64,000 nucleotides of DNA, from the NCBI RefSeq assembly GCF_014137855.1, contig NZ_JACGWT010000003.1, positions 434,001-498,000 on the forward strand. Direction: 5' to 3'. The notes under the pieces are model-generated. The model was not told the DNA's origin and searched no databases. It worked only from the letters and a program-made list of their open reading frames with translations. Position numbers and translations under genes: made by a program. Source of the DNA: Microlunatus kandeliicorticis. Lineage in GTDB: Bacteria; Actinomycetota; Actinomycetes; Propionibacteriales; Propionibacteriaceae. Below, one piece after another: positions 4,682 to 16,767 of this stretch; the first letter of the stretch is position 1; every line of letters starts with the position of its first letter.

Positions 4682-5164
4682 ATGGGCGACCCGAGCGACG
4701 ACCTGTTCGAGGCGGAGATCCGCGGCCACCACAGCATGCGTGATCACCTGCTCGATCTGCTGACCGACGCCGAGCTGTCGTTCGCGCTGCCGGGACGCAA
4801 CCCGACCCTGGCCGGGCTGCTCGTCGAGCTGGGCCACCTGCAGGGCGTCTACAGCCACTCCTTCGCCACCTTCGACCTCGACTGGGACCACGTCGAGGTC
4901 GAGCCGCCGGACCGCTCGACCGTCGCGGCCTTCCGGACCTGGTTCGGTGTGCAGGACGCGGCGATGAAGGCGGCCCTGGAGCGACTGAGCGACGCCGACC
5001 TGCGGGCCGAGCGGATCGACCGGGGCGACGGGTTCGTGGCCTCGCCGTTCGTCCAGCACCAGATCTACCGCGAGGCCGTCTACATCTTCTACGGCAAGGC
5101 GAGCGTCTACCTCCGGGCCCTCGAGATCGACGCCGGGCCGAGCTGGGCCGCCTGGATCGGCTGA
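4682..5164 (+). CDS. DinB-like four-helix bundle protein
   Basis: Protein of 160 aa. It has the DinB/DUF664-like pattern: HHSMRDHLLDLL in helix 1, a conserved His in ELGHLQG in helix 2 and HQIYREAVYIF in helix 4, which together could make a metal site. The ATG at 4682 lies 37 bases from the divergent DUF427 start, so the two probably share a promoter region. The biochemical role is unknown; members of this superfamily include thiol-dependent transferases. Confidence 0.7.
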   Translation: MGDPSDDLFEAEIRGHHSMRDHLLDLLTDAELSFALPGRNPTLAGLLVELGHLQGVYSHSFATFDLDWDHVEVEPPDRSTVAAFRTWFGVQDAAMKAALERLSDADLRAERIDRGDGFVASPFVQHQIYREAVYIFYGKASVYLRALEIDAGPSWAAWIG

Positions 5165-5193
5165 CCCGTCCGGCGCACCGGAACCGCACTGCT

Positions 5194-6123
5194 TCAGGGG
5201 ACGACGATGATCTTGCCCCGGACGCTGCGGCTCTCGATCGCGGCGAAGGCCGCCGCAGCCTCCTCCAACGGAAAGGTGCAACCGACGCGCGGGGTGATGG
5301 CGCCGTCGGCGAGGTAGCCGGTGAGCTCGGCCAGGACGCCGTCGGACTGCGCACCCTGACGGATGACCGTCAGGCCGAGGGAGTCCGCCTTCGCCTGGTC
5401 GATCTCACCGATGACGGTGACGAGGGTGCCACCGCGCTTGAGGATGCCGTACGACTTCTCCAGCGACGCGCCACCGACGGCGTCCAGGACGGCGTCGACG
5501 TCGCGGAGGTGCTCGGCGAAGTCGGTGGAGGTGTAGTCGAAGACCGCGTCCGCACCGAGCTCGCGGACGAGATCGAGGCCGTCTCCGCTGGCCGTGGTGA
5601 CCACGTGCGCCCCGCGGAGCTTGGCCAGCTGGACGGCCGCGGATCCGACCGCGCCGGAGCCGCCGCTGATGAAGACCTTCTGACCGGGTCGCAACTTCAG
5701 GCTGTGGTCGATGGCCTCGACCGCGGTGGTCCCGGCGACCGGCATCGAGGCGGCGTCGGTGAAGCTCAGGTCGCCGGGGATCCGGGCGAGGTTCCCGGAC
5801 GGGACGAGGGCCCGTTCGGCGAACGCGCCGCTGCCGCCGAGCAGGGTGTAGGCGTTGCCGTAGACGCGGTCGCCGACGGCGAAACCGGTCACGTCCGGAC
5901 CGACCGCGGCGACCACGCCGGCCACGTCACCCCCGAGGGTGGCCGGAAAGTGCAGCGGCATGAGCGCCTGGGCGTAGCCGGCGCGGAGGGTCGCGTCGAG
6001 CGGGTTCAAGGCGGCGGCCTCGACGTCGATCAGGACCTGGTCGCCGGTGGGAGCGGCCAGCAAGACGTCGGTGACGCTCAGGACGCTGTTGTCGCCGTAC
6101 TCGGTGATCTGCAGTGCACGCAT
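5194..6123 (-). CDS. NADP-dependent quinone-type oxidoreductase (MDR family)
   Basis: Zinc-independent medium-chain dehydrogenase/reductase of 309 aa. The N-terminus MRALQITEYGDNSVL, the GDRVYG motif near 105, the nucleotide-binding GGSGAVGSAAVQLAKLRGA around 155-175 and the C-terminal VRGKIIVV are all typical of quinone oxidoreductases. The ATG at 6123 follows GAAGGAAG; a longer frame upstream is only a 12-nt tandem repeat translated. It lies downstream of the broken DsbA-like gene on the same strand, and the HxlR regulator is divergent from that pair, suggesting redox or electrophile control. Confidence 0.88.
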   Translation of the reverse strand: MRALQITEYGDNSVLSVTDVLLAAPTGDQVLIDVEAAALNPLDATLRAGYAQALMPLHFPATLGGDVAGVVAAVGPDVTGFAVGDRVYGNAYTLLGGSGAFAERALVPSGNLARIPGDLSFTDAASMPVAGTTAVEAIDHSLKLRPGQKVFISGGSGAVGSAAVQLAKLRGAHVVTTASGDGLDLVRELGADAVFDYTSTDFAEHLRDVDAVLDAVGGASLEKSYGILKRGGTLVTVIGEIDQAKADSLGLTVIRQGAQSDGVLAELTGYLADGAITPRVGCTFPLEEAAAAFAAIESRSVRGKIIVVP

Positions 6124-6143
6124 GGATGAGCTTCCTTCTCTGG

Positions 6144-6191
6144 GGTCGGTCGTGAGGTCGGTCGTGAGGTCGGTCGTGAGGTCGGGAGTGA
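6144..6191. repeat. 12-nt tandem repeat in leader
   Basis: Three exact copies of GGTCGGTCGTGA (6144-6179) and a fourth diverged copy (6180-6191), just upstream of the oxidoreductase start codon. Could be a repeated binding site or simple slippage; nothing else is seen in this 188-base gap. Confidence 0.85.
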
Positions 6192-6311
6192 TTGAGAGCG
6201 GCGGGTCACCGGTGCCGTCGAGGCCGCAGCTGGTCCCGAGCTCGGTGAGCTCGAGAACCCTCGACAGGTCGAGCTCCAGGGCCGGCCGCCGGCCGCTCGG
6301 TGCGGGAGTGC

Positions 6312-6986
6312 TCACGCCGAGACCCCTGCAGCGGCGCGGGCGAGGACGTCGGCATACACCTCGACGCTCTGCGCCCCGGCAACGGCCAGCCGGCCCCCGA
6401 GGACGGCGAACGGGACACCGGTGACGCCGAGTTCCCGGGCCTGCGCCTCGTCGGCGTGGACGTCGTCGGCGTACGCGTGGCCCGCGAGCACCCGCCGGGT
6501 GTCGCCCTCCGGGATGCCGTGACGCGCCGCCGCGGCCACCACCTGCTCGGGGTCGACGGGGTTGCTGCGCCCGGCGAAGTACTCGGCCTGCAGGTCGGTG
6601 AAGAAGGCGGTGCCGACCTCTCGCTCGTTCGCGAGCTGGAGGACCCGGTGCACGGCGAAGGTGTTGCCGACGGGACGGTCGACGACGAAGGGAAGGCCCT
6701 CGGCGGCGGCCTGGCGGGCCATCGCCTCCTCCCTCAGCCGTGCTTGCTCAGGACCGACACCGTGGGCGCGGGTGGCGACCTGCAGCAGCGGCTCGGTGGT
6801 GCCGGTGGGCCACTCCGGGTGCAGCTCGAAGGAGTGCAGGACGATCTGCGCGGCCACGCCGCTGGTCTCGATCGCCCGGACGAGTCGGTGCTCGCCGAGA
6901 TAGCACCAGGGGCAGGTGAGGTCGGTTCAGACGTCGACCCGGACCCGTGTGCTGGAGGTGACTGAAGGATCTAGGGCTGAAGACAT
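6312..6986 (-). pseudogene. DsbA/FrnE-like oxidoreductase with in-frame UGA
   Basis: The frame starts at an ATG at 6986 and encodes the FrnE-type thioredoxin-fold family, with the CPWC redox motif soon after the start and the C-terminal GVTGVPFAVLGGRLAVAGAQ (cis-Pro loop). A single TGA (complement of 6927-6929) interrupts it at codon 20, where relatives usually have an aromatic residue (VDV-stop-TDLTCPWC). A TGG to TGA change explains it. Restarting at the GTG at 6857 would give a 181-aa protein lacking the CPWC active site. The rest of the frame is intact, so the mutation is recent, or it is a sequencing error or read-through. Confidence 0.75.
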
Positions 6987-7065
6987 CTGGACCTACCATC
7001 AAGGCGCAACCGCACGCTTTGTGCGTAATGCGATGATGAGCCCCTCGGAGGAGGCTTACAAAAGG

Positions 7066-7101
7066 CACATCGGTGTTCGCAGCAGTGGGCACACCGGTGT
7101 G
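7066..7101. promoter_or_regulatory. Paired palindromes, candidate HxlR operator
   Basis: CACACCGGTGTG (7090-7101) is a perfect 12-bp palindrome; CACATCGGTGTT (7066-7077) is a near copy 24 bases upstream. Both lie between the divergent DsbA-like and HxlR genes, close to the HxlR start. Phasing of about two helical turns fits two dimers bound on one face. Role inferred from position. Confidence 0.45.
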
Positions 7102-7120
7102 CGTGGACGGAGGGTCGGAC

Positions 7121-7528
7121 GTGACGTCAGCAGCGGGAGTGCACCCGTCGCCGGTCCGCGAGGCGGGGGTCTGTTCGGGGTGGCCCAAGGAGAGCGGCTT
7201 CATCCGCGAGGTCCTCGACCGGATCGGCGACAAGTGGACCATCTTGATCATCGGCACCCTGCGCGACGGACCCCTGCGCTACACCGAGCTGCACAGCGTG
7301 GTGCCGGGCATCTCCCAGCGCATGCTGACCCTCACCCTGCAGCAACTGGCCCGCGACGGCCTCGTCACCCGCACCGCCCACCCGGAGGTCCCGCCCCGCG
7401 TGGAGTACGCCCTCACGCCGCTGGGCCGGAGCCTTCTCGACGTGGTGATGGCGCTCTCGGCCTGGGCCGTCACCCACTACGAGACGGTGGCCGCCAATCG
7501 ACGAGCCGCGGACGAGGCGACCCGCTGA
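7121..7528 (+). CDS. HxlR-family winged-helix regulator
   Basis: Protein of about 135 aa with the HxlR signature: an N-terminal Cys (VCSGWPKESGF), IGDKWTILIIGTL, then RYTELHSVVPGISQRMLTLTLQQL and a winged hairpin with VPPRVEYALTPLGRSL. The single Cys near the N-terminus is the type used as a redox or electrophile sensor in QorR/YodB-like members. GTG start chosen because GGAGG lies upstream at the right distance; a longer start at 7073 is possible. It is divergent from the DsbA-like and quinone-oxidoreductase genes, probable targets. Confidence 0.9.
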   Translation: MTSAAGVHPSPVREAGVCSGWPKESGFIREVLDRIGDKWTILIIGTLRDGPLRYTELHSVVPGISQRMLTLTLQQLARDGLVTRTAHPEVPPRVEYALTPLGRSLLDVVMALSAWAVTHYETVAANRRAADEATR

Positions 7529-7599
7529 ACAGCCCGGCGAGCCATGCGCCGTGCGTGCCACCACGGAGATGATCGCGACCGGCGGAACCGGGAATCGAC

Positions 7600-8058
7600 G
7601 TGAGAGCCGCGATAGGAGATGTCGAGCGAAGTGTGGTCCTAACAGGGGCAAGCTCGAAATTTCTGCTCAAGCTTCGTTCCCTCTGCTCCCCTGCTACGGC
7701 CGTCCGCGACGAGTCCGATCCGGCGCCTGAGCCGCCCCGTCAGCATCAGCTGCAGCGCCGCCTGACCGACGACGAGACCGCGGTGCTGGCGGCGGAGTAC
7801 CAGGCCGGCATCAGCATGAGTGAGCTCGCGCAGCGCTGGCGGATGCACCGGACCACAGTGGCGGCGCAGCTGCGCCGGGCCGGCGTCGAGCTCCGCCGCC
7901 AGGGCGTCCCGGACGGCCAGCTTGCTGAGGCTGCCCAGCTCTACCTGGACGGCTGGTCTTGCCACCGGCTCGGCGAGCGCTACGGCTGTGACGCCGAAGC
8001 CGTCCGACGGAAGCTCGTCCGGTACGGCGTCCCGATGCGGAAGCCGTGGGAACGCTAG
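7600..8058 (+). CDS. Double helix-turn-helix protein, recombinase-type remnant
   Basis: Frame of 152 aa with two consecutive HTH units (about residues 56-98, ELAQRWRMHRTTVAAQLRRAGV, and 104-148, RLGERYGCDAEAVRRKLVRYGV). Such units occur at the C-termini of Hin-like or serine recombinases and in small actinobacterial proteins near them. No catalytic resolvase domain is present. Upstream, the DNA around 7650-7675 would read KLEILLKLR in another frame if one T were removed; I remember that peptide from such proteins, which hints that the 5' part is a frameshifted piece of a longer gene. It marks the left side of the accessory island. Confidence 0.6.
   Translation: MRAAIGDVERSVVLTGASSKFLLKLRSLCSPATAVRDESDPAPEPPRQHQLQRRLTDDETAVLAAEYQAGISMSELAQRWRMHRTTVAAQLRRAGVELRRQGVPDGQLAEAAQLYLDGWSCHRLGERYGCDAEAVRRKLVRYGVPMRKPWER
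7650..7665 (+). repeat. Left direct repeat of the island
   Basis: AAGCTCGAAATTTCTG. A nearly identical AAGCTCGAAATTCTG is found in the same orientation at 12571-12585, and both are accompanied by TAACAGGGG (7640-7648 and 12586-12594). The pair brackets the low-GC segment and could be recombination or insertion-target sites. Confidence 0.5.
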
Positions 8059-8504
8059 TCCATTCCGGCAGCGGCCCGCTCGTCGTCGAGTCGACGCTGC
8101 TCTTGGTCGAGCAGCGCCCGCATGGCCGGCAACAACTGCCTTGGGTCTGGATCCGGTCGGAGCCGCGGGTGCACCGTGATTCGAAACGTCGAGCTCGGAA
8201 CCCGACGACGGCCGGAAGTCGCAAGTGGTTGGGCCGAGTTGGCGGGCCGTTGTTCTGCCTTGGCCTGGTGCAGCGACTGCAAGGCGCGACCGGCGCGCTG
8301 CGGCAACGATGGGTGTACGCGCGAGACGACCTGCCGGTGAACGATGGCTTCCTGGTCGGACAGATCGTGGCTGGGACGGTAGAAGTCGTGGAGGCTGCGC
8401 TGGTCTTTCGACGACAGGCAGGAGAAGAAATTAGGTTTGGCGAGCCAGGCATCTATAACCAACAGGCGGTCTTGCAGGTAGCGTTGGTTGGTGAGTCGGG
8501 GCAT
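8055..8504 (-). CDS. Hypothetical protein, 149 aa
   Basis: Not recognised. The sequence looks like a real soluble protein: basic and helical N-terminus (RYLQDRLLVIDAWLAK), a middle rich in Gln and Pro, and a C-terminal FRITVHPRLRPDPDPRQLLPAMRALLDQ block. Its codon use is closer to the chromosome than to the giant gene next to it. It ends four bases inside the convergent HTH gene. Its start codon lies 14 bases from a run of 14 G (on its strand), so its transcription or translation could be affected by length changes there. Confidence 0.5.
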   Translation of the reverse strand: MPRLTNQRYLQDRLLVIDAWLAKPNFFSCLSSKDQRSLHDFYRPSHDLSDQEAIVHRQVVSRVHPSLPQRAGRALQSLHQAKAEQRPANSAQPLATSGRRRVPSSTFRITVHPRLRPDPDPRQLLPAMRALLDQEQRRLDDERAAAGMD

Positions 8505-8518
8505 TGGCTATAACGATA

Positions 8519-8532
8519 CCCCCCCCCCCCCC
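8519..8532. repeat. C14 homopolymer
   Basis: Fourteen consecutive C on the + strand in the divergent promoter region between the 149-aa gene and the giant gene. Such runs are prone to slippage and G-quadruplex formation on the G strand. The rest of 8505-8678 is AT-rich and has no gene. Confidence 0.95.
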
Positions 8533-8678: not shown

Positions 8679-11588
8679 ATGAAACCCGGCTATGCCAACC
8701 GTTCTCAACTCAAAGCCTGGGCAGACTCAGTCCAGGCCCAAACTCAACTACCTCGTCTGATTCGTCGATTGATTCTCGAGACCGGAGCAGGCATTCTTCG
8801 TCTTGGCATGTCGGCGGACGAAGGCGTCTCGGTTGGTGGATGGGATGGGACCGTCTATGCGCAGGCCGCCTCACCTTGGGTGCCAGCCGGATTGTCAGTG
8901 TGGGAATTGTCCGTGAACAAGAGCCCCGGGACCAAGGCAACAGATGATTACTTGAAGCGTCAGGATACGCCCGACGGGAGCCCAACAGCCGAGGCTACTT
9001 ACATCGAAGCAATCATGAGGACCTGGGCTTCGAGAGATCAGTGGGCGATGGATCGCCAAGCCGATGGAAGGTGGAAGGAGGTGCGGGCGTATGGATTGGA
9101 CGACATCGCGACATGGCTGGAGTCTGCACCACTCACCTGGGCCTGGTTTTCCGAAGAGCTCGGACTGAGACCAGACGGGCTTAGGACAGGATCATCATTC
9201 TGGGCGGCTTGGTCAGGGGCCACGGAGCCCGCCCTTTCTCCAGGCGTCGTGCTTGCTGGTAGGGGCGAACAAGTACATAAAATCCGTGAAGTCGTACAGA
9301 GTCGATCCGTGACGACAGTGTCTGGATCGTCCGTCGAAGAGATTTGTGCCTTCATCGCAGCATTTGCTGTGAAGTGCGATGATGAGGGGGACGACGGTGT
9401 GCTGTCACGTCTTGTATTTGTCGAGGATCCCACCACCTGGCGGGGACTGTTGCGGGCTCCCCACCCAGAAATACTCGTACCCCTCGATCCATCGTTTGCG
9501 GACGATGTTGGCTCAGGGAATATACATGCCGTACTTGTCCCTACCGACGGTCAGGGTGGGGACATTAGCTTAGGACCCGTCGATAGCCAAGCCGTTGCCG
9601 AATCGTTGAGAACGTCCGGCGTCTCCGACCTCCGAAGGTCGGAACAACTGGGCAAGCTAGCTCGACGAAGTCTCAGCGCATTTCGTCGCCGCATCGCATC
9701 CAAGCCAGCACTTCATCAACCACGCTGGGCAAAGGGCGCGGTTCACCGGGATGTGAAAGGGTTTCTCTTAGCCGGCCGCTGGAACGACGCAAGCGATGGA
9801 GACCGCAGCCAACTTAAATTCCTAACAGGGCTATCGGACGACGGACTTCATAATCGCGTTTCAGATCTCGCTCTAGCGGACGACCCATTCATCACGGGAC
9901 TAGGGTCAACTTGGTCACTCGTGTCACCGGTCGACGCCTGGTTGCTCTTGAAATCTTCGCTGCAAGAGGAGGACTTTAAGAGATTCGAGACCGTCGCAGT
10001 GACGGTCCTGGGTGAAGGAGATCCTACACTCGACATTGATCCGGGCGAACGTTGGTGGCGCACGTCGATATCAGGAACAGGTAAGAAGTACTCGCCGCAG
10101 TTAACGCGTGGCCTAGCTCGGAGCCTTGCGCTGCTCGGCACGCTCGGTAACGACGACGTTGGAACCGTTCATTCGGGTGCCGACTGGGCATCGAGCATTG
10201 TGAGGACACTGCTTGCCGCAGCCAACTCCGACGAGAGCGGCAGAGGCTGGGCATCGATTGCCGGGCAACTGCCGCTCCTTGCTGAAGCAGCACCAGGAGC
10301 CTTCCTTGATGCTGTGGAGGAGGCTCTCATCGGCAACGCAGTTGTAGCGCGAGCCTTCTTCTCTGATGGTCCAGATAGTCACCCCCTAACCACGAGTTCA
10401 ATGCATACGCATGTGCTGTGGGGACTTGAGACGACTGCATGGTCAAGTGAGTACTTCAGTCAATCGGTCGACTTGCTCTGTAAGCTCGATTTGGTCGACC
10501 CTGGAGGTCAACAGGCCAACCGGCCGGCCAACTCTCTTCTCAACATCTTGCGACCCTGGCATCCCGACACGGCCGCTTCGCCCGGAAGCCGCTTGATGGT
10601 GTTCGACAACATCCGCAAGAACTACCCTGATCGCGCTTGGAAGCTTGGATTGGCACTTCTGCCAGAAGCTCACGGCAGTGTCCACTTCCCGACACGCAGC
10701 CCTGAGTACCGGGAGTGGAAGCCCGACAAGACATCAGTACCGGCTGCCGAGTACTGGGGGTTCATCGCCGAGGTACTTAATCGTTGTATACAGGATGCGG
10801 GAAACGACTGGGATCGTTGGGCTGAAATCTTTGATCGATATGCGAATCTCGCACCGAGTGATCGAGAGAAGATTCGAGCTAGCTTCCAAGGACAGATTCC
10901 AAATCTCACCTCGGGGTCCGATCGGGCAAAGCTATGGAGTCATGTCCGAAAAGTGATTGCTGATCACCGCGAGTTCCCGGAAGCTGCTTGGTCACTTCCC
11001 GAAGAGGAGATTGTCAAACTTGACGACCTGATAGAAAAGCTGGCGCCCCCAGAGCCCCACGCACAACACGAGTGGCTCTTCCAAGACTGGTCTCCACATT
11101 TGGAAGGGGCTCGCATTCTGGATAACTATGACACATACGAAGCATTACTGGAACAGAAACGTGAAGAAGCGATTGCTTCAATTGTTGATTCAGAGGGCCT
11201 GACCCAGATATCACAACTAGTTTCAAACGTCCGAGTACCTGAGGCTGTTGGGTGGTCCCTCGGTGGGGCGCGCCCAATCTTCGATGATGAGCTCCTGGAG
11301 AGCCTCAAGCTCAGTGCATCGGCAGCTGAGCGTCAACTTGCCGAGCGCTACTTTGCTCGACGCTTCGTGGATGAAGGTTGGGATTGGCTTGAAGGCCTGC
11401 TGACGAAGCGCCCTGAATTGTCAGCATACCAACGAGCATTGCTTCTGCTACTCAGTCGGGACTTTCCCAGGTCCGCCGACACTGCGGAACAAGACGCGGA
11501 GGTAGCAAAAGTCTTCTGGTCCCACTTCTCGCCCCCTACGGCTTGGGGAATAACTTTGTTTTCATTGAACGTGCCGCGACTGGGTTGA
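8679..11588 (+). CDS. Giant island protein, N-terminal part (candidate defence protein)
   Basis: Frame of 969 aa in markedly lower GC (about 52%) than the surroundings. Residues 1-165 form a compact domain with conserved-looking acidic and Lys residues (E34, GGWDG with D56, WELSVNK with E76 and K81, KA..DYLKR at 86-94), reminiscent of PD-(D/E)XK nucleases. Residues about 193-340 begin GRGEQVHKIREVV like a STAND NTPase, but where a P-loop is expected there is TVSGSSVEEICAF, without a GK[ST]; RLVFVED is Walker-B-like. The remaining 600 aa look like alpha-helical repeats. ATG at 8679 has GAGG upstream. The frame ends early through a one-base shift near 11532-11536; the downstream frame (11543-12478) continues the protein. 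No closer family can be named; defence is inferred from architecture and island context. Confidence 0.8.
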   Translation: MKPGYANRSQLKAWADSVQAQTQLPRLIRRLILETGAGILRLGMSADEGVSVGGWDGTVYAQAASPWVPAGLSVWELSVNKSPGTKATDDYLKRQDTPDGSPTAEATYIEAIMRTWASRDQWAMDRQADGRWKEVRAYGLDDIATWLESAPLTWAWFSEELGLRPDGLRTGSSFWAAWSGATEPALSPGVVLAGRGEQVHKIREVVQSRSVTTVSGSSVEEICAFIAAFAVKCDDEGDDGVLSRLVFVEDPTTWRGLLRAPHPEILVPLDPSFADDVGSGNIHAVLVPTDGQGGDISLGPVDSQAVAESLRTSGVSDLRRSEQLGKLARRSLSAFRRRIASKPALHQPRWAKGAVHRDVKGFLLAGRWNDASDGDRSQLKFLTGLSDDGLHNRVSDLALADDPFITGLGSTWSLVSPVDAWLLLKSSLQEEDFKRFETVAVTVLGEGDPTLDIDPGERWWRTSISGTGKKYSPQLTRGLARSLALLGTLGNDDVGTVHSGADWASSIVRTLLAAANSDESGRGWASIAGQLPLLAEAAPGAFLDAVEEALIGNAVVARAFFSDGPDSHPLTTSSMHTHVLWGLETTAWSSEYFSQSVDLLCKLDLVDPGGQQANRPANSLLNILRPWHPDTAASPGSRLMVFDNIRKNYPDRAWKLGLALLPEAHGSVHFPTRSPEYREWKPDKTSVPAAEYWGFIAEVLNRCIQDAGNDWDRWAEIFDRYANLAPSDREKIRASFQGQIPNLTSGSDRAKLWSHVRKVIADHREFPEAAWSLPEEEIVKLDDLIEKLAPPEPHAQHEWLFQDWSPHLEGARILDNYDTYEALLEQKREEAIASIVDSEGLTQISQLVSNVRVPEAVGWSLGGARPIFDDELLESLKLSASAAERQLAERYFARRFVDEGWDWLEGLLTKRPELSAYQRALLLLLSRDFPRSADTAEQDAEVAKVFWSHFSPPTAWGITLFSLNVPRLG

Positions 11589-12478
11589 TAGCTAATAGCC
11601 GTAATGCAGCTGCTGCGAAGTTGCTTGAAGTCTACTTGACGAGAAGCGATTTCGAGGTGTCGACGGCACAACTTTTTCTCCTCATGAACGTGCTCGAAAG
11701 GCTGGCCACCGATACGGCCGACCCTGAGTTGGACGCTCTACGCCAGTATGATTATGAGTCTTTGTTTGAAGTCCTCGAGACTCATCGATCCAGCCTTGAT
11801 GCAACCCGCCTGGGTCGTCTCGAGTGGCAGTTCCTGCCTGCGCTCGGGTACAGCCCAAGTGTGCCTGTACTTTTTGAGGAACTGGCGAAGGATCCGAAGT
11901 TTTTTGTTGAGGTCATCTCGACGGTCTACCGACGGCACGACGGCGAAGAGGACGCGGAAAATATGCAGGAGCCAGCCAATCGCGAGACCATGGCAATGAA
12001 CGGGTATCGGTTACTCGAAGCGTGGGATGTCCCGCCCGGGTTTGACGGAAATGCTATGGACGCGAAAGCCCTAGCCACGTGGCTCGAGGAGGCAACGCCG
12101 CTGCTGCACGAACGAGATCGCTATCGCAGCGGCTTACATCAGTTTGGACAAGTCCTCGCCTCATCGCCTGCTGATCCAGATGGAACTTGGCCGGGGACGG
12201 CCGTAAGAGAGGTCATTGAAGCAGCCGAGACTGATGCCATTGCCTCAGGATTGTTTCTCGCAATCGTGAACGGCCGGGGCGTTACAACGCGAGCCCTCGG
12301 AGAAGGCGGCGAGCAAGAACGTAAGCTGGTTGAAAAGTATAGCGACTTGGCACAAAAGTTGCAGGACGGGTCACCGAAAACAGCGAGAATCCTTCGCAAG
12401 GTGGCTAAATCATACCAATCGGATGCTCGCAGAGAAGACCTCGAAGCAGAGAGCTTCCTGAGCGGGATGGACGACTAG
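11543..12478 (+). CDS. Giant island protein, C-terminal part (frameshifted)
   Basis: Frame of 311 aa with the same low-GC composition as the preceding frame and overlapping its end. Adding one C to the C5 run at 11532-11536 would join the two smoothly (FWSHFSPP-YGLGNNFVFIER), giving about 1,265 aa. The segment is helical throughout with no recognised motif, ending in an acidic tail. There is no RBS in front of the nominal TTG start, so it is unlikely to be an independent gene. Either a real null mutation, a slippage-controlled switch or a sequencing error. Confidence 0.75.
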   Translation: MGNNFVFIERAATGLIANSRNAAAAKLLEVYLTRSDFEVSTAQLFLLMNVLERLATDTADPELDALRQYDYESLFEVLETHRSSLDATRLGRLEWQFLPALGYSPSVPVLFEELAKDPKFFVEVISTVYRRHDGEEDAENMQEPANRETMAMNGYRLLEAWDVPPGFDGNAMDAKALATWLEEATPLLHERDRYRSGLHQFGQVLASSPADPDGTWPGTAVREVIEAAETDAIASGLFLAIVNGRGVTTRALGEGGEQERKLVEKYSDLAQKLQDGSPKTARILRKVAKSYQSDARREDLEAESFLSGMDD

Positions 12479-12697: not shown

Positions 12698-12773
12698 TGG
12701 TGGAGCTAAGGGGATTCGAACCCCTGACCTTCTCGTTGCGAACGAGACGCGCTACCAACTGCGCCATAGCCCC
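12698..12773 (-). tRNA. tRNA-Ala(CGC)
   Basis: Full cloverleaf on the minus strand. The acceptor GGGGCTA/TAGCTCC contains the G3-U70 pair that identifies alanine tRNA. The anticodon loop TTCGCAA gives CGC, the T-loop is GGTTCGAATCC, and CCA is encoded. Confidence 0.97.
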
Positions 12774-12867: not shown

Positions 12868-13674
12868 CTACTCGCCGACCGCCCGGCCGAGGTCCTGCTC
12901 GTCGGCGGTCCGCGGCGCCTCGGCGACCGTCGGAACGGTCGGCCGGACCAGGCCGACCGCGGGGCCGTCGGCGGTGACCGGGAGCCCGAGCCGGCCCGAC
13001 GACGTGACGTCGGGAGCACTCAGGTCGATGGTGCGGACAGTCCGCGGAGCTAGCGGCTTCGAGACGTAGGTCGGCATGGTGATCGGCAGCGGGTCCCACA
13101 GCCCCACGGTGTTGGCCGACGCCGGGCTGGCCGCGGCGACGACCGCGGGCTGGGTCTGCGGCTTGAGCTTCAGGTCGGTCCGGCGCAGGAAGACGGTCTT
13201 CTCGTCGTTGCCGTGGCAGATCCGCGCGAACCGTGCGTCGAGGTTGCGGCGCATCGCGCGGACGCTGAACCGCGAGACCACCACGAAGGCCACCAGCAGG
13301 CCGCCCGGCACCGCGAGCCAGGCCCAGTCGATGAAGCGGCCGGCGCAGGCGCCGAGCACCAGCGTGACCACCGCCATCAAGATCAACAGCACCCGTCGCC
13401 GCCGGCCCGCGGCCACCAGCTCCATCCGGCGGAGCTCGCGGATCGCCGCCCGGCGCGTCATCGGGGTCGAGATCTCCACCGCGACCATCGGCGTCAGATC
13501 CTGATCAAGGACCGGCGCGGTGCCGGACCGGACGATCCGCACCGAGTCGGAGAAGCGCTCGCGCGGATCGGTCTCCGCCCGCGACTCGTGATCACGGCGA
13601 CGGAGGTAGGTGGGGATCAGGAAGGCGAGCCAGGCCACGGCGATGGCAGCGTAGATCAGGCCGGTCATGCTCAC
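12868..13674 (-). CDS. glpR: GlpR/SepX-like membrane protein
   Basis: Membrane protein of 268 aa. An N-terminal TM helix (IYAAIAVAWLAFLIPTYL), then a conserved cytosolic segment (RRDHESRAETDPRERFSDSVRIVR), two more TM helices around residues 95-135, and a Pro- and Thr-rich C-terminal tail. This matches the actinobacterial protein called GlpR (gephyrin-like molybdotransferase receptor) or SepX, which recruits the MoeA paralogue Glp to the division site. It closes the gene run that starts with moeA, which supports the call. A GTG start is used, with an ATG two codons later. Confidence 0.75.
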   Translation of the reverse strand: MSMTGLIYAAIAVAWLAFLIPTYLRRRDHESRAETDPRERFSDSVRIVRSGTAPVLDQDLTPMVAVEISTPMTRRAAIRELRRMELVAAGRRRRVLLILMAVVTLVLGACAGRFIDWAWLAVPGGLLVAFVVVSRFSVRAMRRNLDARFARICHGNDEKTVFLRRTDLKLKPQTQPAVVAAASPASANTVGLWDPLPITMPTYVSKPLAPRTVRTIDLSAPDVTSSGRLGLPVTADGPAVGLVRPTVPTVAEAPRTADEQDLGRAVGE

Positions 13675-15429: not shown

Positions 15430-16767
15430 TCACTCGTCGCCGAGCAGCCAGACGTCCACCTCGTCGCCCTGGGCCACGAAGTCGACGTCCTCGGCGAGCA
15501 GCACCAGCGTGTTCGCCCGGACCAGCCCGCCGAGCAGGTGCGACCCCGGTCCGCCGACCAGCGACACCGCCCGCCCGCCGTCGCGGTCGCTCTCGACCAG
15601 CCCGCGGGCGAACTGTAGCCGGTTGGGCAGCGACCGCATCGGGTGCGCAGCGCGGCAGCGGACCGGTTCGCGCTCGTAGGGAGTGGCACCCATCAGCCGC
15701 CGGATCACCGGCCGGACGAACGCCTCGAACGAGACGAAGCTGCTCACCGGGTTGCCAGGCAGCATGATCATCGGCACCCGGTCCTCGCCGATCAGCCCGA
15801 ACCCCTGCGGCTTGCCCGGCTGCATCGCGACCCGGGCGAAGTCGGTGGCGCCGAGCTCGGGCATCACCTGCTTGATCACGTCGTAGTCGCCCTCGCTGAT
15901 CCCGCCGCTGGTGAGGATCAGGTCGGCCCGGACGAGCTGGTCGGAGATCAGCTGCTTGACCGCGGCCGGGTCGTCGTCGACCAGCCCGACCCGGAACACC
16001 TGCGCGCCGGCCGCCTTGGCCGCCGCGGCGAGCAGGTAGGAGTTCGAGTCGTAGATCTCCCGGTCGCTGCTGAGCCGGTGGCCGGGCTGGACCAGCTCGG
16101 TGCCGGTGGAGACCACCACCACCCGCGGCCGCGGCCGCGGCCGCACCGTCACCTTGTCCAGGCCGATGCCGGCGAGCAGCCCGATCGCCCGCGGGCCGAG
16201 CCGCTGGCCCTCGCGGAGCACCACGGTGCCGGCGGCGACGTCCTCGCCGCGCCGGCGCACGTGCTGGCCGAGCACCGACGGCTCGACCACGGCGACCTCG
16301 CGCTCGCCGCGGTCGGTCGCCTCGTAGGGCACCACCGCGTCGGCGCCGGGCGGCAGCGGGGCGCCGGTCATGATCTTCATCGCCGACCCGGGCGAGAGCC
16401 GGTGCGGCGCCACCTGGCCGGCGGCGATCTCCCCGACCACCGGCAACCGGACCGGGGTGTCGCTCGAGGCCGTCTCGACGTCGTGCGCCTGGACGGCGTA
16501 CCCGTCCATCGCCGAGTTGTCGAAGCCGGGCAGGTCGACCGCCGCGCTGACGTCCTCGCACAGGCACAGCCCGACCGCGTCGAGCAGCTGCTGGCTGAAC
16601 GGCGGCAGCGGGTCGACGCAGGTCAGCAGGTAGTCGCGGTGGTCGGCCATCGCGCGCAGCCCGTCGACGGTGTCGGCGGGCGGGGCGGGCAGCGCCGGCC
16701 GCTCGGTGCGCTCGACCAGCGGCCGTTCGGAGTCGCGTCGTCGACCGAACAGGGGCATGGGCCCCAC
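15430..16767 (-). CDS. moeA: Molybdopterin molybdotransferase MoeA / Glp
   Basis: Protein of 445 aa (or 442 from the ATG at 16758) of the MoeA/gephyrin family. It contains PGFDNSAMDGYAV, GAPLPPGADAVVP, STGTEL, DSNSYLL, TSGGISEGDYD and MLPGNPVSSFVSFEAFVRP, covering the active-site cleft. With moaB and moaC downstream it may serve cofactor synthesis; with glpR in the same run it is the likely Glp paralogue, which has been tied to cell division in corynebacteria. Both roles are possible. Confidence 0.93.
   Translation of the reverse strand: MGPMPLFGRRRDSERPLVERTERPALPAPPADTVDGLRAMADHRDYLLTCVDPLPPFSQQLLDAVGLCLCEDVSAAVDLPGFDNSAMDGYAVQAHDVETASSDTPVRLPVVGEIAAGQVAPHRLSPGSAMKIMTGAPLPPGADAVVPYEATDRGEREVAVVEPSVLGQHVRRRGEDVAAGTVVLREGQRLGPRAIGLLAGIGLDKVTVRPRPRPRVVVVSTGTELVQPGHRLSSDREIYDSNSYLLAAAAKAAGAQVFRVGLVDDDPAAVKQLISDQLVRADLILTSGGISEGDYDVIKQVMPELGATDFARVAMQPGKPQGFGLIGEDRVPMIMLPGNPVSSFVSFEAFVRPVIRRLMGATPYEREPVRCRAAHPMRSLPNRLQFARGLVESDRDGGRAVSLVGGPGSHLLGGLVRANTLVLLAEDVDFVAQGDEVDVWLLGDE

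Follow-up and report, generated by a model that had tools for sequence, protein, structure and literature searches.

A mobile protein family homologous to PD-λ-4A and lacking a Walker A motif, with a frame-broken member in Microlunatus kandeliicorticis, is a candidate nuclease-armed phage sensor

The window analyzed here, the whole stretch of 64,000 nucleotides from Microlunatus kandeliicorticis, carries at positions 8679–12478 a large gene of low guanine-plus-cytosine (GC) content, which is broken in its reading frame and whose product belongs to a mobile protein family spread over many phyla. On the evidence of profile comparison, the family is homologous from end to end to PD-λ-4A; its members conserve nuclease-like residues at the N terminus and lack a standard P-loop (Walker A motif) in the middle domain, and a clade nested within the family carries different N-termini. 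It is judged fairly probable that these proteins are phage sensors armed with a nuclease, derived from STAND proteins and no longer using ATP, of which the window holds a broken copy.

The gene appears in the open reading frame (ORF) list as two ORFs that overlap in different frames; a preliminary description of the sequence had spoken of a frameshift. A single family profile places both pieces in order (model positions 7–959, then 968–1260), and the relatives found by blast are mostly single ORFs that span both pieces, the intact ones being about 1230–1380 residues long. The two ORFs are consequently read as one gene with one break. Apart from the break the reading frame is uninterrupted, and those conserved residues that were checked are present. 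Residue numbers throughout are those of the window protein, and loci named L plus a number are sequences of relatives. The features of the gene are as follows.

8679..11588, forward strand: piece 1, an ORF of 969 residues spanning the nuclease module, the degenerate NTPase-like module and the greater part of the conserved core
11543..12478, forward strand: piece 2, an ORF of 311 residues with the C-terminal part of the core
11535..11560, forward strand: zone of the reading-frame break, between profile positions 959 and 968
8679..9173, forward strand: PD-(D/E)XK-like nuclease module, residues 1–165, assigned from its conserved residues and its alignment with the PD-λ-4A N terminus
8844–8846, 8904–8906 and 8934–8936, forward strand: codons of D56, E76 and K86, respectively, placed by alignment
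9201..9713, forward strand: putative degenerate STAND NTPase-like module, residues 175–345, co-linear with the NTPase region of PD-λ-4A
9318..9353, forward strand: place of the Walker A motif, residues 214–225 (VSGSSVEEICAF), with conserved E221, placed by alignment
9714..11534, forward strand: start of the family core, residues 346–952; the core is retained in N-terminal variants
10275..10598, forward strand: hallmark segment LAEAxPxxFL...LLWALExLAW...NRPxNSL, residues 533–640, in which E536 and P539 are invariant

No credible match to the window protein was found in Pfam, PADLOC or NCBIfam. Both pieces match phrog_18693 (PHROGs v4, unknown function) in order, piece 1 with an E value of 2.9e-76 (profile positions 7–857) and piece 2 with 2.7e-51 (989–1250), and the family can on this basis be equated with that cluster. 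Searches limited to open-licence PMC text brought up no paper seen to name the family.

Residue counts refer to 76 aligned rows, consisting of window piece 1 and 75 loci. In the N-terminal module D56, G57, P69, E76 and R94 are invariant (76/76), and K86, located 10 residues after E76, is a lysine in 72 of the 76 rows. The preliminary description had proposed a PD-(D/E)XK motif made up of D56, E76 and K81; the first two residues are borne out, and K81 is ruled out as the catalytic lysine, the conserved lysine being K86. The module aligns with the N terminus of PD-λ-4A (hhalign, 96.8%, E = 2.5e-10), where the family motif GWDG...WE...KA has DGGID...FQAKK as its counterpart. No Pfam nuclease family was matched. 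From its conserved residues and its alignment, the N-terminal module is predicted to be a DNA-cutting nuclease.

The missing P-loop, which the preliminary description had seen in the window protein, proved to be family-wide: not one of the 76 rows carries a standard P-loop in its middle domain. The standard pattern occurs elsewhere in one row (L106), near the nuclease motif, and a relaxed pattern in L056 lies inside the middle module, yet off the Walker A place. At that place, position 221 is glutamate in 72 rows and aspartate in the other 4, the fuller motif [AG]x[ST]xx[ED][AV] is found in 51 of 76, and hhalign sets E221 against the glycine preceding the P-loop lysine of PD-λ-4A. In the STAND-like start that had been noticed, R195 of the GR preface is an arginine in 75 of 76 rows. 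The absence of the Walker A motif is a stable trait of the family and not decay of the window copy.

The reference for PD-λ-4A was the PADLOC model PD-Lambda-4_A (PDLC03991, 1283 positions), and PD-λ-4A-like proteins were fetched after weak, mostly co-linear matches to this model in several members. Such a protein is present in 8/299 (fragments included) and 8/247 genomes. Ten proteins formed the comparison set, from which L148–L151, L153–L156 and L164–L166 were left out as fragments or for their odd lengths. In a single comparison, the family (75 relatives, with the window row left out) aligned to this set over 1156 columns (hhalign, 99.6%, E = 1.2e-24), whereas a reversed alignment and 10 column shuffles gave at most 0.1%; a half-rotated control alignment still recovered the C-terminal half in register (97.9%). 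Taken by module, the core aligned to PD-λ-4A with 98.8% (E = 4e-17) and the C terminus alone with 37.6%. The profile of the 10-protein set matched window piece 1 with an E value of 2.6e-10 (scaled to 100,000 sequences). In the other direction, a search confined to seven PD-λ-4A-like rows, two of which (L149 and L154) are the same ORF, gave the family profile six matches below 1e-3, with L148 at 0.027. The hallmark segment is common to the family and the partial PD-λ-4A-like ORF in L150 (E = 8e-13, seven-sequence search). The start of the core may form a winged helix. Beside L146 stand two other ORFs of more than 200 residues, which may or may not include the second gene of the system, PD-λ-4B; at E 1e-3 neither has a relative in any of the loci compared.

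On these comparisons, the family and PD-λ-4A are taken to descend from a full-length common ancestor. In the mechanism proposed for intact members, the C-terminal core would sense a product of the phage or of foreign DNA, the P-loop-less NTPase-like module would relay the signal without ATP, and the N-terminal PD-(D/E)XK-like nuclease would be the effector, cutting DNA either selectively or suicidally. Activation would most likely proceed by ligand binding and assembly without ATP, for which DSR2 offers a comparison. Independence from ATP is suggested because the Walker A motif is missing and a conserved acidic residue stands in its place. Similarly, the middle module would be a degenerate STAND NTPase because it is placed between two homologous modules, carries the GR preface and matches the PD-λ-4A NTPase weakly.

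Several results weigh against this interpretation. The middle module alone compares weakly with the PD-λ-4A NTPase (hhalign, 6.7%, E = 0.0054), an E value that nevertheless beats 20 shuffles (best shuffle 0.19), and the first 195 columns of the core, taken by themselves, reach only the level of shuffles (0.4%). L150, the best match of the family profile, is a partial ORF that does not cover the P-loop region. With the PADLOC PD-Lambda-4_A model, the window protein gives no match at E ≤ 1, two of seven members match weakly, and 19 of 33 records match at E ≤ 1, in some cases through other, shorter ORFs. In the neighbor scan described below, the PADLOC control ORFs also held BREX, CBASS-like and Mad matches. 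Finally, the window gene itself is broken. Weak PDB matches were left unused; the best in the body of the protein had E values of 0.017–0.029, and 9jix, a designed P-loop ATPase, was hit by the middle region on two occasions (E = 0.027 and 0.22).

A tree of the core, built quickly (85 rows, with support from the SH-aLRT (Shimodaira–Hasegawa-like approximate likelihood ratio test) only) splits the PD-λ-4A set from the family by a branch of support 99 and places L024 and L081, both from Actinomycetota, nearest to the window protein. L024 (9914–13765), from Acidimicrobiaceae, is an intact member, as is the plasmid-borne WP_283055026.1 from Rhizobium sp. CB3171. The seven rows without nuclease and middle modules (L004, L019, L103, L107, L109, L110 and L111) form one clade inside the family with a support of 97, and the join above this clade has a support of 81. 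The order is provisional, given long branches (L022, which has the full architecture, L004 and L152), long branches that join at the root, and unlike composition in 35 rows. In L004 (568–3789, reverse strand) a Schlafen AlbA_2 N terminus (E = 3.1e-9) sits on the same core and replaces the nuclease and NTPase-like modules. L103, L107, L109 and L110 carry a different N terminus of ∼250–300 residues on this core; the L103-type N terminus has no Pfam nuclease match, and its D...GQIKHS stretch looks nuclease-like by eye. In L019 and L111 the core has almost no N-terminal part. A wider scheme, which is possible rather than probable, is that STAND-derived sensors lost ATP binding and came to rely on an ATP-independent switch built on the acidic motif, that the nested clade then shed the NTPase module and took other N-termini, such as that of Schlafen AlbA, and that some lineages became paired with a P-loop-bearing sister, an equivalent in bacteria of paired NLRs.

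The genes around the family were surveyed in 95 loci where one side offered at least 3.9 kb of flank, near-duplicates included, out of 109 with a family ORF. At 3 of the 95, in two phyla, the P-loop-less gene has a P-loop-bearing PD-λ-4A-like gene as its immediate neighbor in the same orientation, as listed here.

L202, 6677–14704, same strand: tandem pair in Rhizobium leguminosarum pPR4, P-loop-less gene first
L020, 5719–13697, same strand: tandem pair in Rhizobium, P-loop-less gene first
L077, 5939–13795, same strand: tandem pair in Saprospiraceae, P-loop-bearing gene first

Chance adjacency is unlikely because PD-λ-4A-like genes are found in so few genomes (the 8/299 and 8/247 given above), although islands collect defense genes in any case. 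An extra ORF of 361–407 residues that resembles only the nuclease and middle modules adjoins the family gene at three other loci (L057, 9902–11119; L062, 9917–11137; L086, 9965–11047). Paired sensor and helper NLRs occur in plants, and both arrangements would fit a model in which the P-loop-less protein is the sensor or regulator half of a pair, with a PD-λ-4A-like, P-loop-bearing partner driving the ATP-dependent assembly. Such pairing is nonetheless unlikely: 92 of the 95 loci show no P-loop-bearing partner in their flanking sequence, none is found among the window genes tested, and the adjacency may merely reflect the habit of islands to collect defense genes.

Among 14 annotated plasmid regions, eight (L006, L009, L012, L014, L015, L019, L020 and L021) carry, no more than ∼6 kb away, a gene for Abi, restriction, a YhcG-type nuclease or toxin-antitoxin, a count that has no control; a further three plasmid regions are unannotated. 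The preliminary description had named housekeeping surroundings as a finding that would speak against its proposal, and the regions read do not show such surroundings, the homologues lying on plasmids and virus-collection contigs and, in eight of the 14 annotated plasmid regions, having the neighbors just described. A PADLOC scan covered 150 of 177 neighbor ORFs (31 of 36 loci) and, as a control, 150 of 192 ORFs in regions taken from the same genomes (15 of 20 regions). It matched 181 PADLOC families among the neighbors versus 61 among the controls, where families and not proteins are counted. These counts, set against a control that is not clean, are taken as suggestive of an enrichment. At L031 an ORF (4769–8305) overlapping the family gene has E1/ThiF (Cap2-like), peptidase-like and patatin-like matches and is possibly a CBASS-like fusion.

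Relatives are present in 21 of 72,556 plasmid records, 18 of which cover at least 80% of the query, and in one of 50,697 phage records. Of genomes sampled from the phylum of the window, 5/396 contain a match (own included; weakest E = 9e-4); with the core alignment as the query, 4/296 genomes of this phylum were matched (own included; weakest E = 1.4e-4) and 9/299 in the phylum of a Pseudomonas carrier, a figure that counts this carrier as well as one PD-λ-4A-like protein. In the genome_contigs collection, 548 stretches matched one peptide pattern and 540 encode a relative, of which 80 were kept; these include Actinomycetota, Bacillota, Bacteroidota, Pseudomonadota, Planctomycetota and Methanosaeta bins. 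L025 and L036, binned contigs from Methanosaeta metagenome bins, hint that the family may reach archaea. The viral_contigs collection gave 19 candidate stretches, and a relative is encoded in 11 of them. The earlier guess of an undescribed, defense-type mobile gene is supported, as is the order of the modules. Members in plasmid records are annotated as "hypothetical protein" or "helix-turn-helix transcriptional regulator." An extension of at least 70 residues before the window start point, measured from the first in-frame start codon, is present in 38 of 75 full-length relatives and absent from the window copy, and 10 of 15 members scanned match HTH_3, a helix-turn-helix (HTH) domain. The HTH extension probably serves autoregulation.

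The HTH matches, together with the PD-(D/E)XK-like front end, the many members on plasmids and the fact that 10 of the 21 plasmid records are typed conjugative, can also be read as a restriction-like nuclease directed against incoming plasmids or other mobile DNA and not against phage, the core then recognizing DNA or a conjugation product. This alternative appears quite unlikely. By eye, the 14 annotated plasmid regions contain no recurrent methylase or other self-protection partner, and the relative PD-λ-4 is, as its name and the screen behind it suggest, a defense system against phage λ.

Frame breaks are not confined to the window. At least 4 of the 80 kept genome_contigs relatives (L023, L025, L037 and L064) are broken, as are L021 and L174, and with the window copy this makes seven broken members. 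The breaks lie at approximate model positions 146/149, 430/434, 778/781, 814/854, 866/877 and 943/947 and, in the window, 959/968, the last two being close together. As the sites differ among the seven members, the breaks are regarded as local events, and a conserved programmed frameshift is ruled out. Some of the breaks in relatives may be assembly errors, and the window copy is probably inactive unless its own break is one. It is very unlikely that the family consists of decayed or selfish accessory genes with no defense role, the loss of the P-loop and the frame break being pseudogene decay, for although these broken copies fit such an origin, the five invariant nuclease-module residues and the acidic residue 221 persist across many phyla, which shows long-term selection, and the seven breaks fall at seven different places.

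The composition of the gene sets it apart from its surroundings. Its GC fraction is 0.563 compared with 0.733 for window positions 13000–64000, so that the contrast reported earlier (52% in a chromosome of 70%) stands while its exact figures do not, and the GC fraction at third codon positions is 0.56 and 0.59 in the two pieces compared with 0.97 in the ORF at 15430–16767, taken as moeA. A simple reading of these values would be a recent acquisition. Three features flank the gene.

8055..8504, reverse strand: divergent ORF of 149 residues with no family match, present in 2 of 96 genomes (own included)
8519..8532, no strand assigned: C14 homopolymer between the divergent ORF and the gene, the sole run of at least 8 in the 64 kb
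12698..12773, reverse strand: tRNA-Ala (CGC) with its 3′ end toward the gene, found by ARAGORN and present in the regions of all 10 relatives

The end of the gene lies ∼220 bp from the 3′ end of the tRNA-Ala. In 10 of 10 regions from relatives (L126–L135), the tRNA-Ala and the gene at window positions 12868–13674 are both present; they are adjacent in nine and ∼4.3 kb apart in L132. Left of the tRNA-Ala, where ∼7–8 kb were read, none of the 10 regions has the family gene, and of five window genes from this side that were sought there, the sole match was a weak one (35%) to the ORF at 5194–6315, in L133. Because the family gene and nearly all window genes sought are missing on the left in the 10 relatives and the right-hand gene is present in all of them, the left flank of the tRNA-Ala is likely an integration hotspot. 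A second copy of the tRNA 3′ end, as an att duplication would leave, was sought in the window and not found. The gene may, as the preliminary description has it, be a single-gene island, for which no att sites and no left border were seen. The C14 run lies ∼147 bp upstream of the gene, and base composition predicts 0.025 C runs of at least 8. Runs of at least 9 occur upstream in 2 of 71 relatives with enough sequence before the frame start, both of them poly-A. The C14 run may reflect phase variation or an error of assembly.

In STAND- and NLR-type immunity, assembly driven by ATP is usually regarded as central. A mobile family that spans many phyla, is homologous to PD-λ-4A from end to end and has no standard Walker A motif in the middle domain of any row checked offers a direct route to asking whether, and how, sensors fire in a nucleotide-free manner. 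It also ties an unnamed PHROG cluster to a known defense system, making the cluster a candidate addition to defense catalogues.

Of the known systems, Avs (AVAST) was the one to which the preliminary description likened the protein. The analogy holds as a concept, in that an effector, an NTPase module and a C-terminal sensor are combined in one large protein. Membership is not supported: 15 members matched 19 PADLOC families at E ≤ 0.1, none of which has an Avs name, PDB sequence searches with the body of the protein gave no solved structure at E < 0.01, and none of the 76 rows has a standard Walker A motif in the middle domain. In Avs5, according to the portion of the report available (PMC12931631), mutation of Walker A abolishes immunity, whereas the family has no such motif and no sequence match to Avs. 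A Gifsy prophage protein was set aside, being a ParA-like ATPase with a P-loop (PMC12724215), and the weak Pfam matches were scattered. DSR2 serves as a working analogy only. It too is a large effector-sensor protein switched on by a phage protein, and the excerpted account (PMC11087589) has the bound phage protein needed for enzyme activity; it differs in its effector, a SIR2 NADase joined to a regulatory-sensing module, and the PDB sequence searches returned no DSR2 match. The cluster phrog_18693 has no assigned function, and the N-terminal variants of the family match it as well, from profile position ∼320–360 onward.

PD-λ-4A, which the preliminary description had not named, is the relative that can be traced. 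A table in the available part of a review (PMC10952713) places PD-λ-4 under P-loop NTPases and gives Vassallo et al. 2022 as the source, a study whose accessible text reports 21 systems protecting Escherichia coli (PMC9519451) and does not describe PD-λ-4 specifically. PD-λ-4A keeps a canonical P-loop in all 10 proteins of the set, whereas the family has none, and the proteins read by eye have a Mrr-like D...QxK nuclease motif that the family lacks. Identity between the two is ∼13%, and about half of the family members have the N-terminal extension. What they share is co-linear homology over the full length, a similar size, the order of nuclease, NTPase-like module and long core, and the hallmark LAEA...LLWALE...; relatives are carried on plasmids, and in 3 of the 95 loci the two kinds of gene stand side by side.

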